In this document: one piece after another, positions 8,979 to 54,482 of the stretch
Layout: each line of letters starts with the position of its first letter
Numbering within the stretch: the first letter of the stretch is position 1
Assembly: GCF_020342435.1 (NCBI RefSeq)
Contig: NZ_CP080504.1
Coordinates: forward strand, 759,081-823,080
DNA length: 64,000 nucleotides
Origin: Candidatus Vallotiella sp. (ex Adelges kitamiensis)
GTDB lineage: Bacteria; Pseudomonadota; Gammaproteobacteria; Burkholderiales; Burkholderiaceae
Direction: 5' to 3'
Notes under the pieces: model-generated
The model's input: the letters and a program-made list of their open reading frames with translations, nothing else
The model's database searches: none
What the model was told of the DNA's origin: nothing
Program-made: the position numbers and the translations under genes

Positions 8979-9660
8979 ATGAATAAGCTTTAAAAAAGCT
9001 AGCGTTCATTGAATCTACTTCGGTTATATCTGTGCTGATATCAGTACACTCGTTTCTTGCTTCGCAATAAGTTACTACGACAAACGGGCAAATATCACTG
9101 AAGAATTCATATGGATAGACGGCCCAGGCGATCTTTGCCAGTATGATGCTTTTTTTGGACTCCTGCCACCGTAGTATATGAAGTTAACGGCCTGTTTAGT
9201 GGATTAAACACACGCGCCGCTGTAATCACCACCTGTCGGTGGTCGTAGCGACTCCGATCATAAGAAGTCAGAAAGTCATCTATAAGACAAATATACCATT
9301 TGTCCTCAATAAGACTGTGCTATCTTCCTGGATAAGAAAAGATTGACAATTTAGCCATAAAGACTTGGGGTTCAAACCCTTTTAGCCATAAAGACTTGGG
9401 GTTCAAACCCTTAAAAGATTGTAGCTAAAGGCTGTATAGTAAATCTATCTTAGATAAGTACGGTAATCATCTAGCACTGCACCAGGCACAAGCCGTAAAA
9501 ATGTACCTAATTAGCAAGGGTATCCTTAACAACTACACTTGTACAGATTATAGGAATAGCTGTAATCCCTTAACAATAATCTGCCACCATAAAGATGGTA
9601 AGGTGTTGATCCTGTGTCTAATATCCAGCCTCCGTGTAGAAGTGCAAGTTATTGCAACTA
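8979..9660 (+). pseudogene. ompA: OmpA-family outer membrane protein, decayed
   Basis: Starts at ATG 8979 (MNKL, then a stop). Following the plus strand across frameshifts recovers, in the right order, segments typical of Burkholderia OmpA-like proteins: EEFIWIDGPGDLCQYDAFF (compare E-Y-V-W-K-N-G..LCWRDAFW), VATPIIRSQKVIYKTNIPF (compare SQKITYQAD), then LALHQAQAVKMYLISKGIL (compare LSLRRAQAVKSYLVSKGVE), and finally SLRVEVQVIA. The last parts include the OmpA peptidoglycan-binding region. At least three frame changes, internal stops and a 31-bp tandem duplication (9350-9411) make it non-functional. It is divergent from gyrA. Family calls rest on remembered homologues; order and spacing make chance unlikely. 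Confidence 0.85.
9350..9411 (+). repeat. perfect 31-bp tandem duplication
   Basis: Two identical 31-bp units, 9350-9380 and 9381-9411, each beginning TTTAGCCATAAAGACTTGGG and ending TTCAAACCCT. It lies within the ompA pseudogene and shifts its frame (31 is not a multiple of 3). With no divergence between units, it is probably a recent slippage duplication. Confidence 0.97.
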
Positions 9661-36256: not shown

Positions 36257-39200
36257 TGTATGCTAATGGTGACGTTGTGATGTATAGCTCTAGTAGGCCA
36301 TCGCGCAAAGTGCGCAATTATCCTAGTCCGATACAAATATTTTTGACACTGTGTAGTTTAACTACAATCCGAATAAAACGGTACATTTAGTGTGAAGAGA
36401 AACTGCTTTGTATCAATAAGTTGTAATGTAATCTTCCGGATTATCAAGAGTAAGCAAGCTCCATCTACATCTTCTTCATAATTATATGATAGACACTATG
36501 CAGAAACACCTTCATATTCAAGAGAGAGATATACATATGTATCTACGCGTTGCCTGGGATTGGCACTAATTAATTATTTTATGGTCTATACACTTGACAC
36601 TTATATCTGATGAATCCAGTTCTCTACAGGGAATAAACATAAGATTTCTAGCGATTATCGCCGCACTGTATACTGCTAGTTTAATGTGCAATACCATGGC
36701 GGATAAGACGTTCCAATTTTGTCTAAACATGCTAGGTATCCAATTAAGCTGCCGGCGATTAGAAATAGAACCTGCCACTATAAATCAATAAGACTGTCTA
36801 TCCAAAGAGCTATTATCTCACTAGGCTTTTCTCTACATACTAAGAAAACTAGCTATAGGTGAATAAGGTAAAGCAGGCAGTAGTTGGCTAAAAACTAGAC
36901 TGACTGCTGTATACCAGCGATTAGATTAAAGACAAGTTTTAAAACTTGAAGAATCTAACAGATCAAGTCATATATTTCACATCTATTCTCTCTATCCCTC
37001 TAGAACAAAGTTAGAGCGATACAATGTCTAGTCAGTTGTTAGCGAACCTAAAAATTAGAAAATTGTCTGAATATGGTTGCACTAATACCCAAATTAGACG
37101 GCTCTATAAGAGATGCCCGAAATAAAACTTTAATTAAAGTGAAAGTTATATGTCTTTTTTATTGTATGATGCAGTGCGGCCTAACCTCATCGTAAGTATA
37201 ATTATCGATAATATTGCTATATTTATCCAATCTAATCTGAAACTCTAAAGGCGTAGAATAGGTGCAATACTCGAAGTAGGTAGCTCTCTCTCTTTTTCAA
37301 ACTCCCCTGTTATATGTTATCGAGACCATCATATGTTTTCCTAGCCTTAGATAGTGCAGGTTTAAGCTATTCGCACTGACAAGCTTTGTGCAGAGAATTC
37401 TCTTGATAGAGGGGTTAGACAATTAATTAATTCCGAGACTATGCCAGCAAGTAATGTAATAAATTCTGTGTAGAATTTGTCTACATCCATCATATGGTGA
37501 TAAGTTACCCTTTTTTAATCTAATACCCTAGCTACTAGCTCAAATGCCTCAATCCGCTAAAAGTACTATTCGCTAGTAACTTATTCTTAGATCTAGCCGA
37601 AGAGTAATAGCAGCAGTTTAGTTAGGTACCCCGCTAATCATGTTTATCTCGCTCTAGAACTATTTACGATGATTTTTCTAGATTGGCTTATTTATGATAA
37701 AAAGACGTTGCATACTGTATTTTTATATCTGATAACAATTTTATTTATCGTCATTAGCCTCGCCCTAATACATTCGAGTTGTTAATGAATAGCGCACTGT
37801 ATTTTTGATGTTTTACTATTTACTTAGTAATGGGCTAAATTTTAGGGAGATAAATTTCTTTCGTCGATCTAAACATCCGTAAAATCCATCTCAACGCAAC
37901 GCCGGTGTGTATGCCGTATAGGGGTAATAATTAAGAACGGCTAGAATGCCGACCTTAATCAATGGATCTATCTTCATCAGATTCACTCTGTCGAATGTGT
38001 TTGCTAGTGCAAACTATAATTTGCGGCGAGATTGTTGATTATTACTAGAGTAATCAATCAATTTTTAACGAAAGATATCGGCTGCTTAAGAGAGATTTCT
38101 CTTATGCACTATATTTTTTTAAACAGCCTTAGAACATTTTTTATGCCAATCATCTAAAACAGGTGTCTAATCAGAAGAAGTTATATCGGAACATTAGAAA
38201 TGCTCAGATTTCGCACCCGCTCTATTGGGGGTCTTCATGCATTCTCGGGGAGACGCTAGAAGCAACATGATGGGGTATCTTGTACGTGCCCGCTTGACAC
38301 TTTTGTTCAACGAATCACTACTCAGAACTTAATACCAAATTATTTATTGGGAAACGCTAGAAAAGCAGGATGATAACCTTCTTATAAGCAAGACAATCAC
38401 TTGCGTGAAGACATCTAAAATTTGACGCTGCACTTATTCGTAGACGCATCATTGCAATAGCAAGTCACTAAACTACTATCTTCCTCTTTAAAAAAATGAA
38501 CTGCAGTGGTATTTATTAGTATAACGATACTCATATGCACGTAAGAATTGCTCGTGTCGATAATAAGTAACGTCTAATCCGCGGGATTCTCTCAACGTAC
38601 TATTGTAACTCAGGTCACGCTATGAAAATATATAACGAATTGATATAGGAATGTGTCATCTGACTCCCGCGCCTGCAAGAGTCAATATCTATTCTGCCCA
38701 GAATCTTAAAAAGAGACCTCGTTACAAACGAAGAGCAAGCAAGATATTATGCGAAAACTAGTTGGATAACAACACAAGCATGCCTCTCTGCACGCATTTT
38801 TTGTAGAGCATTACTTTCGAACGCTCAGTAGTAGATTACGTATTGTTCACGTGCATCGCGTGTAATGAGTATAACATATATTTCATCACATGCCCGTCTC
38901 TATAGATGATGATTAGTCAATTATGATGCTCTTACTCTAGGTTCACGCAAACATTATAGGCATGCTTCTACCTGCGCTTAAAAATTTTTGCCTCTTGAGC
39001 AGCAGTGAAAAATTTACGTGCTCTAAATGAGAATACGTGTCAAGAAATAGCAACTGGGCGATGGCATAAGTATGCTCCATCCTTAGTCTGAGTCTCGCGG
39101 GAATGCTTGAACGGGTCAGCCGGTATGAGTTGATCCACCATTCAAGTATCGCGTCAGATCAGTGTAAAGTGATCTGAATCTAACGCTGCATAGTCGGGCA

Positions 39201-40270
39201 CAGATTAAGTAGATTATCCCACTAATTAACTAACACAACCTCTCATTAGAAAGTAAGGTTGACATACGTATACTTTCCTAAGCCTCTTACCTTATGAGTC
39301 TCTCCAATCGAGACGCTTCCTACAATGCGTCTGCTGCCAGCGGTAGCATCTCGCCGAATCGGTGGGCTAGCAATCGCCCAAATAAGCGATCCCTCGACCG
39401 AGGGTTTACCGAGATACGGTAATATGGAATAAACGCTGCTATTAACAATAAGTCAAGTAATAAGACGTTGAATAATGCGCTACAGGTATCAAAAAATAGG
39501 GAATTATTTACCATATAGAATGCATAAGATATTCCAAGCATTCAAAGCTGACTCTCTTACTTCTGAGTAGCGTCAACCTATTAGTGCGCCTTCGCCTCGA
39601 GTTTTTATTTAGTGCAACGACAAACGCTAAGATTCCAACTACCCAAAAGATTTTCCGCATAATACCGTTGACCAATCGATCTGTATTATCTCGAGCGGTA
39701 CTAAGACTCGATAAATGCGTTCTGGGCTCACTCATAGGTTTTCCAGCCCTATTTCATTGTTCAGACCTAAGATTATGATTGCAGTCATATCAGTAGCCTT
39801 TTTATAAAAACCGGATCCAGACTGTTAACTCTTAGTTGTTTTTTCTAAGCTGGTCTGATGATCGACATCACACATTACATAGCGTATGTGCATATTAACG
39901 TTCATCAATTAAACGAAATATTTAGCGTATCCGGCACTAAAACCGCGTCGGTTATCGTCGACTTAGTCTTAAAGAGACATGCATCTCACGCAATGTGAGC
40001 TAACTTTTCCCCACATTGTACAGCCAGTTGGTCTAGGTGTCAGAACGTTCAACGTAGATTCTCTAGACTCTATGCCTGGTCTATGTTCGTATCTGAAGTA
40101 CTGCGTAGGCTTTACCTACATCATATGCCATGATATGTCTTGCTTAATACGTATTTCTAATACATGCCCTGATACATACTTGGTACTAGCATGCATTTTA
40201 TACAAATCTGGTTTCATGTTGATTACACCTAACACTGCACTGCAACACTAAACACTAACTTAACTCTACC
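36257..40270. other. 4-kb region without an intact gene
   Basis: The longest empty stretch. In Burkholderia sugar ABC transporter genes often lie divergent from zwf. A plus-strand segment at 36639-36710 reads INIRFLAIIAALYTASLMCN followed by TMADK, shaped like a decayed signal peptide whose start would be ATA instead of ATG, but no more of the protein is readable. It contains one copy of the 128-bp repeat (38466-38593) and an unrecognised minus-strand open stretch near 39237-39735. No RNA gene seen. Confidence 0.5.
38466..38593 (+). repeat. 128-bp dispersed repeat, copy 1
   Basis: Identical over 128 bp to 52867-52994 in the same orientation, 14,401 bp apart. It starts CACTAAACTACTATCTTCCT and ends CCGCGGGATTCTCTC. 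It has no terminal inverted repeats and no target-site duplication. On the minus strand an open stretch reads RESRGLDVTYYRHEQFLRAY and ends in a stop inside the repeat. Confidence 0.97.
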
Positions 40271-41419
40271 ATGTTCTCAGACTTTGATTGCTTACAGATG
40301 CGGCACGCGCTTGCGCTTGCGGAGCGCGGATTATATACAACATCGCCCAACCCGCGTGTCGGATGTGTACTTGTCAAGGATGGCAAAATTATTGGAGAAG
40401 GCTTTACTCAGCCTGCTGGGCAAGCCCATGCAGAAATTTGCGCACTAAAAGATGCTCTGTTACATGGACACACTCCTATAGGCTCTACTGCCTATATAAC
40501 GCTGGAACCTTGCAGCCATTTCGGATATACGCCTCCCTGCGCTAATATGTTAATCGAGGCTGGAATTGTCCGGGTAATAGCTGCGATGGAAGATCCAAAC
40601 CCACAGATCAGCGGGCGTGGATTAGACATGCTGTGCGACGCAGGCATAGAGGTACACTGTGGATTACTTTTGAAAGAAGCACAGGAGCTGAACATCGGCT
40701 TCGTATCCAGGATGACTCAGGGTGTGCCATGGGTGCGCCTTAAGATCGCCGCTACATTAGACGGTTGCATCGCATTACCAAATGGCCAAAGCCAGTGGAT
40801 CACATCTAACGCGTCTCGCATAGACGGACATGCATGGCGAGCCCGTGCGTGCGCGGTGTGCACTGGCATTGGTACAGTGCGAGTGGATAATCCACGGATG
40901 AACGTGCGCGCAGTGTCAACGTCTCGTCAACCGCTACGCGTGCTAGTGGATAGTCGTCTAAACGTGCCGTTAGATTCGAAAATCTTATCCGGAGTACCGC
41001 CGCTTATTATATGCGAGCGCGACGATAGAGAATGCAGACAGCGGGCGCATATGTTACGAGATGCCGGTGCTGAAGTGATTGCCTTACCGAATCTGTCCGG
41101 AAAGGTTGATCTGAAGGCGACACTACGGATGCTTGCAGCGCGCGGCGTTAACGAGTTGCATGTTGAAGCTGGCTATAGACTGAACAGCTCATTATTACGT
41201 GAGGGCTGCGTTAATGAGCTGTTACTCTATATTAACCCGTCTTTTATCGGCAATGCGATAAGCATGTTTAACTTTGATTCGCCTTCAGTACTCGATCAGC
41301 GGGTACGACTAAGCTATCATTCAGTTAAACTGATTGGTGAAGATCTAAGGGTCCTAGCTAGGATTATATCAGCAGCTGAGTTTAATAACGCACCGCAAAT
41401 AGGTGATGTGCGCTCATAA
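40271..41419 (+). CDS. ribD: riboflavin biosynthesis protein RibD (deaminase/reductase)
   Basis: 382 residues with both domains. The N-terminal pyrimidine deaminase (residues 1-145) has the zinc site HAEICALKDA and TLEPCSHFGYTPPCANML. The C-terminal reductase (150-370) has GVPWVRLKIAATLDGCIAL and the NADPH loop GIGTVRVDNPRM. It catalyses the second and third steps from GTP toward riboflavin. It starts the cluster ribD-ribE, followed after a gap by ribBA-ribH-nusB. It ends at 41419, only 17 bp before the ribE start. Confidence 0.96.
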   Translation: MFSDFDCLQMRHALALAERGLYTTSPNPRVGCVLVKDGKIIGEGFTQPAGQAHAEICALKDALLHGHTPIGSTAYITLEPCSHFGYTPPCANMLIEAGIVRVIAAMEDPNPQISGRGLDMLCDAGIEVHCGLLLKEAQELNIGFVSRMTQGVPWVRLKIAATLDGCIALPNGQSQWITSNASRIDGHAWRARACAVCTGIGTVRVDNPRMNVRAVSTSRQPLRVLVDSRLNVPLDSKILSGVPPLIICERDDRECRQRAHMLRDAGAEVIALPNLSGKVDLKATLRMLAARGVNELHVEAGYRLNSSLLREGCVNELLLYINPSFIGNAISMFNFDSPSVLDQRVRLSYHSVKLIGEDLRVLARIISAAEFNNAPQIGDVRS

Positions 41420-41436
41420 TGAAGGGGTTCTATCGT

Positions 41437-42066
41437 ATGTTCACGGGCATTGTTACAACGATAGGCTGGATTGAATTAGTCACTCCAATAGGCTCTTCTA
41501 TTGAAGAGGGTTTGCGTCTGTCCATCGCCGCTGACATGCTTGATCTATCTGATGTTGGTTTAGGTGATAGCATTGCAGTGCAAGGTGCTTGCTTGACAGT
41601 CGTCGAAAAAAGAGAAACCCAGTTCGATGTCAACGTCTCGCGAGAAACACTGAACTGCGCGGCCGGGCTCACCCAGCCGGGCGAAGTGAACTTAGAAAAA
41701 GCACTGCGTGCGGATAAGCGTTTGAGCGGCCATGTAGTGAGTGGGCATATCGATGGTCTGGGGCAAGTTAGTCGTTTCGATCCGATAGGCGAATCGCATG
41801 AATTACGCATCATCGCCCCCCCCTTGCTTGCGAAATATTTCGCAAGCAAGGGGTCGGTCACACTCAATGGTGTTAGCTTAACAGTTAATTCTATACAAGA
41901 TCGGATCGATGGATGCGAATTCTCAATTAACCTAATCCCGTATACGATAGAGATGACTACACTGCGGCATTTACGGGTAGGTGATAAACTTAATATCGAA
42001 GTTGATATTATCGCGCGTTATGTTGAGCGGATGCTTAGTGCATATTGGGACCGCTATAAATCATGA
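41437..42066 (+). CDS. ribE: riboflavin synthase alpha chain
   Basis: 209 residues from ATG 41437 (MFTGIVTTIGWIELV), the family start; an ATG six codons earlier only overlaps ribD. It dismutates two lumazines to riboflavin. Two lumazine-binding beta-barrels are present: first with GACLTVVE and FDVNVSRETL, second with SGHIDGLGQV and LNGVSLTVNSI. The codons for APPLLAKYFASKGS form a 34-bp perfect palindrome (separate entry). Sometimes named ribC or ribE in different species. Confidence 0.95.
   Translation: MFTGIVTTIGWIELVTPIGSSIEEGLRLSIAADMLDLSDVGLGDSIAVQGACLTVVEKRETQFDVNVSRETLNCAAGLTQPGEVNLEKALRADKRLSGHVVSGHIDGLGQVSRFDPIGESHELRIIAPPLLAKYFASKGSVTLNGVSLTVNSIQDRIDGCEFSINLIPYTIEMTTLRHLRVGDKLNIEVDIIARYVERMLSAYWDRYKS
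41820..41853 (+). repeat. 34-bp perfect palindrome inside ribE
   Basis: Left arm CCCCTTGCTTGCGAAAT at 41820-41836 is followed directly by its reverse complement ATTTCGCAAGCAAGGGG at 41837-41853, with no spacer. It lies within coding sequence and overlaps a run of eight Cs (41816-41823). Confidence 0.95.
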
Positions 42067-52553: not shown

Positions 52554-52866
52554 CTAAGCATTCCTTGAAAAGGCAACCTAAACACAAGCGGTAGCACCCA
52601 GCTTTACTATTTCTCAACAATCTCTATACTTCATCTCAGTATATAGGTTTCAATCTCTAAAACGTTTATATTTCTGTCCAAAAAATTCTAGTTGTCTAGA
52701 CTGAAATATGTGAAATTGAATTGTGAATGAATACTTCGCTTATAGCAGGGCTAAGGCTATTACTGTGCCAGAAGAATATTGTATGTACAGCGCTCGTGCC
52801 TTAACACACAAGCTGCGTAGTACGCTGCAGCGAAAAAGTATGTTGGATTAGAAGACAGGCTCTCTA

Positions 52867-52994
52867 CACTAAACTACTATCTTCCTCTTTAAAAAAATGA
52901 ACTGCAGTGGTATTTATTAGTATAACGATACTCATATGCACGTAAGAATTGCTCGTGTCGATAATAAGTAACGTCTAATCCGCGGGATTCTCTC
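52867..52994 (+). repeat. 128-bp dispersed repeat, copy 2
   Basis: Exact copy of 38466-38593, same orientation. The flanks differ completely on both sides (ends ...TCTCTA before, CATGTTTG after), so the boundaries are sharp. Confidence 0.97.
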
Positions 52995-53974
52995 CATGTT
53001 TGTCTCACCTCTTTACAAAGGTATGTAATATATGCGCGTTATTCGCATCTTCGATAGGTATCGACAGCTCAACTCAGTAGCATTAAATATATTCCCCCTA
53101 ATAAAAAATACTGGCATAACGATAGATTATCTGCATTTTGTTATCAGGCGATCGTAATGCGAATACGAAGCTTAAAATCTCAGGAACTTTGACAGTATTA
53201 CAACGTAGTTATAGCAACGTTCATCCATCTTTCCGAATCTAGAGATTAACCTATACTAATCTCTAAATGTCTCTATCAAAAGTACATTATGTTTATACCA
53301 TGCCCTCTAATAAAGAGGGGGTACATATTATTACAACACGCCATCTTAAATAGAGACTTATCGCTTTTAAAGTAATAAAAAACGAAAGCCATCGATTGTC
53401 TTAATCACTAAGATTCCGGGTGTTCGTCCTAATACCTAGGACCTAATATAGCCAGAAACACTACTGAGTATTACATCTTTATAGAATGCAACCTATGACA
53501 AAATATTTTTATTATTTCATTTATCCTAGCCTTATACTAGTAGACTTATTCGGTGAACTTAAATTCAGATTTTAAATAGTACTAAACTAACTCCGTTATA
53601 GATAACGTATTATTTAAAGTTTATTGTTTTAGGGGTAAAATGCACGAAGCTGCCTATTAAGGGGCTTACAAGATAGACATAACTCAAGCATCCAGCAAAC
53701 ACGCTTTTGCCTAATATACAGCTTAAAATTACTACAGCAGTATCACCGAGACTTTATAAAAAATTACGATACTACTATCTAAAAAAGTAGAAATAAAATA
53801 TAATAAAAGAATATCACTAACAGATTAAATACTAATAAAAAATATTCGTGCCCTCTACTAAAATTAGTCGAGGTTATTCGATAACTATCTTAAATAATCT
53901 TAGTATAAGTATACTTGCAGACAATACTATATTTATGTGTAAATTAGCGTGTGATTTATAATAAAAAATTATTT

Positions 53975-54018
53975 AAAATATATCTATATACTATAACTAG
54001 TATATAGATATATTTTAT
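53975..54018 (+). repeat. 18-bp AT-rich perfect inverted repeat
   Basis: TAAAATATATCTATATAC (53975-53992), 8-base loop TATAACTA, and its reverse complement at 54001-54018. It sits in the most AT-rich part of the window, far from any gene start. Could be a protein site, a former terminator, or a chance product of AT-biased decay, though 18 perfect pairs is long for chance. Confidence 0.85.
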
Positions 54019-54482
54019 CTATAAATAATAATTAAAAAACATTAATTTTATAATTATTCTTTCCCCTTATCAGGACGATTCTGAGCTCAAAAAAGCGCCT
54101 AAAATTTAATTTTTAATTATCCAGCTATTCTTAATTAGCTATGTTTAATTCTCTAAAATAATAGAATTTGAGTGAATAATCTATTATGTGCTCTAATTTG
54201 CTTATAAAAGCAATATTTTTTAATTAAATTAATGTGATCCTATACTTAGGATTAATAATAAAAGCTATCGCATTAGCAATCTGAAAAGAAAGGGGTGCTA
54301 CCGCACATAGCGGGTAACTAGTAAAAAGTTTATTGATTAGATTAATAGCATACTACATGGGTAATTTTTATAAAATTTAATATGTATGCGATTAATATTA
54401 CTATGAGAATTTTTTATAAAATTGATGAAAACGCAAGTAACTTAAAGCATTAGCTTCTATTTTCTTGAGAAGACTGGCATAG

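Follow-up and report, generated by a model that had tools for sequence, protein, structure and literature searches.

An exact 128-bp repeat in two spacers of a Vallotia-type chromosome: recent functionless copy or assembly seam

The question raised by this locus is how the same 128 bp came to lie, without a single difference, in two gene-free regions of one symbiont chromosome. The original prediction left several origins side by side, among them a recent duplication, a functional element such as a small RNA, and an assembly artefact. Positions given below without a contig name are those of the window, i.e., the whole stretch of 64,000 nucleotides that was analysed. The features concerned are the following:

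38466..38593, plus strand: copy 1 of the exact 128-bp repeat, in the zwf-ribD spacer
52867..52994, plus strand: copy 2 of the exact 128-bp repeat, in the uppP-waaA spacer
36257..40270, no strand: spacer holding copy 1, 4.0 kb, from zwf to ribD
52554..54482, no strand: spacer holding copy 2, 1.9 kb, from uppP/bacA to waaA
34799..36256, minus strand: zwf (glucose-6-phosphate dehydrogenase, G6PD), left neighbour of copy 1, Pfam PF00479/PF02781
40271..41419, plus strand: ribD, right neighbour of copy 1, Pfam PF01872/PF00383
51711..52553, minus strand: uppP/bacA, left neighbour of copy 2, Pfam PF02673
54483..55799, minus strand: waaA (Kdo transferase), right neighbour of copy 2, Pfam PF04413

The two copies and their surroundings

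The perfect repeat that had been reported is confirmed: the two copies are equal at 128/128 bp on the same strand and thus form a direct repeat, with 14,401 bp from start to start. The first bases outside the repeat differ between the copies on both sides, which makes the edges sharp, and gapless identity over the adjoining 100 bp is at chance level (20/100 to the left and 27/100 to the right), so that the surroundings are indeed unrelated. A repeat finder returns 133 bp at 98% identity, the extra length being chance matches beyond the right edge. The genome-wide count that had been proposed gives exactly two loci and no partial copies, whereas the original prediction held that many random partial copies would point to assembly chimeras. 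A chance origin of the identity is out of the question, because the other exact repeats longer than 44 bp in the surrounding 464 kb all belong to one tandem array. A second copy with sharp ends at an unrelated site is the pattern by which an ectopic templated duplication is recognised. Elsewhere in the window, a 31-bp unit forms an exact tandem pair at 9350-9412, about 0.9 kb before the tmRNA gene.

The two settings have little in common. Copy 1 is 2.2 and 1.7 kb away from its nearest genes, while the near edge of copy 2 lies 314 bp from the uppP start codon. The order of zwf, ribD and uppP is the same as in V. tarda (G002) and in G004, a genome taken to be V. cooleyia. Within the copy-1 spacer, decayed matches to congeners occur at 36257-36584, 38925-39390 and 39583-39961 (blastn, syntenic stretches only), and a weak match to V. 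tarda (58%) at 36933-37226; positions 36500-38930 have no match in seven other genomes of the same genus at E <= 0.01. In the copy-2 spacer, the first ~170 bp align to congeners, beyond which there are only weak AT-rich matches (around 53865-54054). The pre-insertion site is unreadable because the relatives do not align at the repeat loci, neither at one insertion point nor at the other. The stretch 36522-38925 measures 2.4 kb here, compared with ~0.4 kb and ~0.5 kb in two congeners of 3.6-3.8 Mb, probably Mycetohabitans (G003 and G007), i.e., about 2 kb of extra spacer. Positions 38085-38146 weakly match a non-syntenic stretch of G004 (E 0.004). The GC content of the repeat is 35.9%, with 36.1% and 38.4% beside copy 1, and 44.4% before and 28.7% after copy 2. 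A compositional seam at copy 2 was considered and rejected, as GC declines gradually there with no step at the repeat.

Search for function, mobility or gene origin

The original prediction saw in the repeat its best candidate for an undescribed functional element. Selection or gene conversion would then keep the copies of a small RNA, regulator site or protein-binding sequence identical, and the perfect identity is what speaks for this, with nothing else beside it. The repeat has no match at E <= 0.001 in any of 40 relatives, three other Vallotia-type genomes included, so that the conservation in sister species for which a check had been suggested is not seen at that threshold; at E <= 1, weak matches appear in 13/40 relatives, the best at E 0.0188. 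An exact search with a 43-base core found nothing in a wider collection of genome contigs, from which this genome's own and near records may be absent. The predicted RNA fold is no better than that of shuffled sequences on either strand (z = 0.85 and -0.26), and neither Rfam nor a promoter and terminator scan gives a match inside the repeat; one miRNA-type Rfam match (E 4.6) falls outside it. The longest reading frame touching the repeat encodes 41 aa. The repeat thus has neither the conservation nor the structure beyond shuffles that would mark a non-coding RNA, and its two copies sit at very different distances from genes. The functional proposal is left without support, and a functional element is very improbable.

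That the repeat is what remains of a mobile element such as an IS or MITE, with two surviving copies, is just as improbable. Inspection of the flanking sequence shows no target duplication at either copy, in agreement with what had been stated, and the further statement that terminal inverted repeats are lacking is right for the ends of the unit itself but needs qualification: an imperfect inverted pair of 14 nt (38452-38465 and 38595-38608, 11/14) encloses copy 1, just beyond its ends. Such a pair occurs with a frequency of 0.004 at 1,500 random spacer placements, which would favour a mobile origin, yet this was one of four tests, the pair is not part of the repeat and has no counterpart at copy 2, and it is treated here as chance. 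The combination expected of an IS or MITE, inverted repeats within the unit plus a target duplication, is not found; there is no third copy, and no match at E <= 0.01 among 72,556 plasmid and 50,697 phage records. A known gene as the source of the copy was also rejected, given that the repeat has no match in relatives at E <= 0.001 and positions 36500-38930 none in seven congeners at E <= 0.01. A literature search on the question posed by this repeat found nothing.

A natural copy weighed against an assembly seam

Among the origins first listed, a recent duplication and an assembly artefact both survive. The best explanation, with about an even chance of being correct, is a recent, functionless ectopic duplication of spacer DNA. 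Template switching, or the templated filling of a break, would have placed a 128-bp piece of one spacer, its orientation unchanged, in a second spacer at a distance of 14.4 kb, with no part played by a mobile element. Copy 1 may be the likelier source, as the GC content of the repeat is closer to that of the copy-1 flanks, a weak indication. The perfect identity is taken as a sign of youth and not of constraint: 0/128 differences bound the divergence of the copies at 2.3% (95%), about 3% of the distance to V. tarda, from which 320/665 fourfold sites differ in four genes (JC 0.77); the corresponding count for V. cooleyia is 229/477 in three genes. An artefact aside, the repeat is young. Since RecA is present in 4/4 Vallotia-type genomes (with an intact-looking recA in the studied one) and Ku in 0/4, a natural copy would more probably stem from template switching in replication or RecA-type repair than from Ku joining. 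The control search for Ku was positive in 1/14 genomes, and Ku-type end joining was rejected as the copying mechanism.

Comparable short copies are found in two sister genomes. In G004, an exact 226-bp piece lying inside an intact hflX-type GTPase gene has been copied in inverted orientation 351 kb away, and in G005 an exact 124-bp piece, which combines the 3′ end of a DUF883 gene with the 51 bp that follow, has an inverted copy about 450 bp away:

G004, C1:646384-646609 and 997515-997740, inverted: copies of the hflX fragment, exact over 226 bp
G005, L114 9567-9690 and 10139-10262, inverted: copies of the DUF883 tail, exact over 124 bp

The extra copies sit where no ORF is listed (at least 80 aa in G004, at least 60 aa in G005), and that of G004 ends 234 bp before the argS start. 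The hflX-type gene occurs in 4/4 Vallotia-type genomes and the second fragment in G004 only (1/4), which reveals the direction of copying. According to PMC8857208, V. cooleyia was assembled with Flye from PacBio reads, which applies to G004 if that genome is V. cooleyia. In 1.2 Mb of sister sequence there are thus two exact events that reach 100 bp, a rate at which one or two would be expected in the studied genome. The latter also holds a decayed inverted pair of 107 bp at 79% identity, its members about 450 bp apart (C1:954679-955343) and located in spacer except for 16 bp overlapping the end of an ORF, which looks like an old case of copying. Pairs with at least 70% identity, E <= 1e-6, centres at least 200 bp apart and no tRNA number 0, 1 and 1 per 400 kb in V. 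tarda, V. cooleyia and G005, and 16 in 941 kb of the studied genome, mostly rRNA flanks and plasmid ends; only one of these is a clear decayed non-coding pair. A further pair in this genome, of 173 bp at 74.6% identity, lies at C1:68977 and 402797.

Perfect palindromes without a loop, 24-48 bp long, are also present in each of the four Vallotia-type genomes, at 5-8 per 400-464 kb compared with 0-1 in each of the first-order Markov controls (five per genome). Examples in the studied genome (G000) are the 34-bp palindrome at 41820-41853 and one of 44 bp at C1:987533. The former lies inside an ORF (41419-42066), and therefore not all palindromes are spacer terminators. Perfect palindromes have been attributed elsewhere to template switching (PMC7202029, PMC8794818).

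The studied genome consists of a chromosome of 1,105,254 bp and a plasmid of 67,397 bp, and was taken to be 'Ca. Vallotia lariciata', a symbiont of adelgids, for which PMC8857208 describes a plasmid of 67 kb together with a triple rRNA repeat that had collapsed. The other two assignments were made on similar grounds: G002 agrees to the base with the 1,123,864 and 72,431 bp given for V. tarda in PMC8692619, and G004 has a plasmid of 61,393 bp, that of V. cooleyia being 61 kb. By the same identification, the assembly conditions of the A. lariciatus symbionts were applied to the studied genome; as set out in PMC8857208, they comprise SPAdes with k up to 127 on 150x150 reads from pooled insects, contigs joined by SSPACE, PCR and synteny, and gap filling with GapPadder and Pilon.

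A scan that covered 81.8% of the chromosome (904,000 bases) and 37,398 bases of the plasmid, 941 kb in total, yielded 46 pairs of exact repeats with a length of 22 bp or more, from which 30 tandem (starts less than 200 bp apart) or hairpin (less than 150 bp) pairs were set aside. The remaining 16 include three pairs of the 5,189-bp rRNA operon, one repeat of 1,227 bp, which we take to be the EF-Tu gene, and one of 22 bp. Six more (156, 129, 129, 127, 105 and 104 bp) lie beside rRNA gaps, the 105- and 104-bp ones also near the start of the chromosome record, and four (114, 105, 60 and 51 bp) at the ends of the plasmid record. The 128-bp repeat is the only dispersed repeat of 23-200 bp in the 941 kb scanned without a copy at a gap or record end. 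In the part scanned, five 100-N gaps (C1:82309-82408, 87598-87697, 629692-629791, 634981-635080 and 1099966-1100065) flank three identical 5,189-bp rRNA operons, and the record itself ends with the third operon; contigs beside these gaps share exact overlaps of 104-156 bp. A 54-bp tandem array spans the ends of the plasmid record (L039 17275-17398 and L130 1-149), whose start equals its end over 105 bp, so that the copy number of the array is uncertain.

An assembly seam is a serious contender, somewhat short of an even chance. A contig end from a k = 127 graph would have been misjoined or left in, and one of the two copies would be absent from the cell. Contigs of such a graph share end overlaps of 127 bases, and the 128th base would match by chance; a length of k+1 is accordingly what a contig-end overlap at or just above k predicts. 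For each of the other dispersed exact repeats of 100-200 bp (156, 129, 129, 127, 114, 105, 105 and 104 bp), at least one copy touches an N-gap edge or lies within 36 bases of a record end. The 127-bp match stops precisely at a gap edge and the 129-bp matches start precisely at one, the pattern to be expected of contigs that end k bases from where repeats diverge. No repeat of 127-129 bp was found in 400-kb samples of V. tarda or of the Flye-assembled V. cooleyia; V. tarda, as reported in PMC8692619, was assembled by Unicycler with k up to 77 and with nanopore reads. Only a few per cent of natural copies, at a guess, would measure 127-129 bp. Against a seam, the overlaps at rRNA flanks are real repeats cut at contig ends and not inventions, and a false copy would require chimeric or variant reads together with a bad join, as de Bruijn nodes need read-supported junctions; such false support or joining is judged uncommon. 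Neither copy has an N-gap beside it, although a join between contigs, once closed, is not visible in a sequence. The local gene order agrees with that of sister genomes, and according to PMC8857208 the authors relied on Pilon to detect misassemblies.

Against the natural copy stand the length of the repeat, equal to the assembler's k+1, and the fact that its dispersed exact counterparts of 100-200 bp in this record lie at the ends of contigs or records. Copying at a steady rate would have left more decayed non-coding pairs than are seen, the copies in the sisters are inverted and derive from a gene whereas this repeat is direct and has no such donor, and no event of this kind is seen in 400 kb of V. 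tarda. On balance, we lean slightly towards the natural copy over the seam, a matter of judgement and not a computed posterior.

Meaning and comparison with known systems

The repeat is ordinary whether it is a natural copy or a seam, and of little importance alone. It serves as a caution that a perfect repeat of 127-129 bp in a k = 127 assembly needs a read check before any biological reading. If real, it would be a further hint, besides those from V. cooleyia and G005, that ectopic copying of short pieces happens repeatedly in Vallotia, and, being a direct repeat 14.4 kb apart in a genome with an intact-looking recA, would put ribD and the other enclosed genes at risk of deletion. A wider proposal is rather doubtful, namely that the spacers of recently reduced symbiont genomes are sometimes refilled by copy-paste of 100-250 bp chromosomal pieces, with roughly one recent event in each genome; part of the 'unrecognisable' spacer DNA would then be native sequence scrambled by template switching.

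Among known systems, the k-mer overlaps that de Bruijn assemblies can leave in duplicate where contigs are joined resemble the repeat in length (128 versus k = 127) and have counterparts in this record, which shows overlaps of 127 and 129 bp at N-gaps; they differ in that the 128-bp copies have no adjoining N-gap and would need false read-level support. The hflX and DUF883 copies of the sister genomes are likewise exact, short, non-mobile and recent, but they are inverted and come from genes, while the 128-bp repeat is direct and involves no gene at either locus. As for templated insertions and template-switch duplications of the FoSTeS or MMBIR type, parent state, breakpoint microhomology and dynamics are not visible at this locus and the mechanism is inferred; the likeness lies in a short stretch of distant DNA reproduced exactly, with abrupt ends and without a mobile element, and the palindrome excess in the four Vallotia-type genomes also fits.
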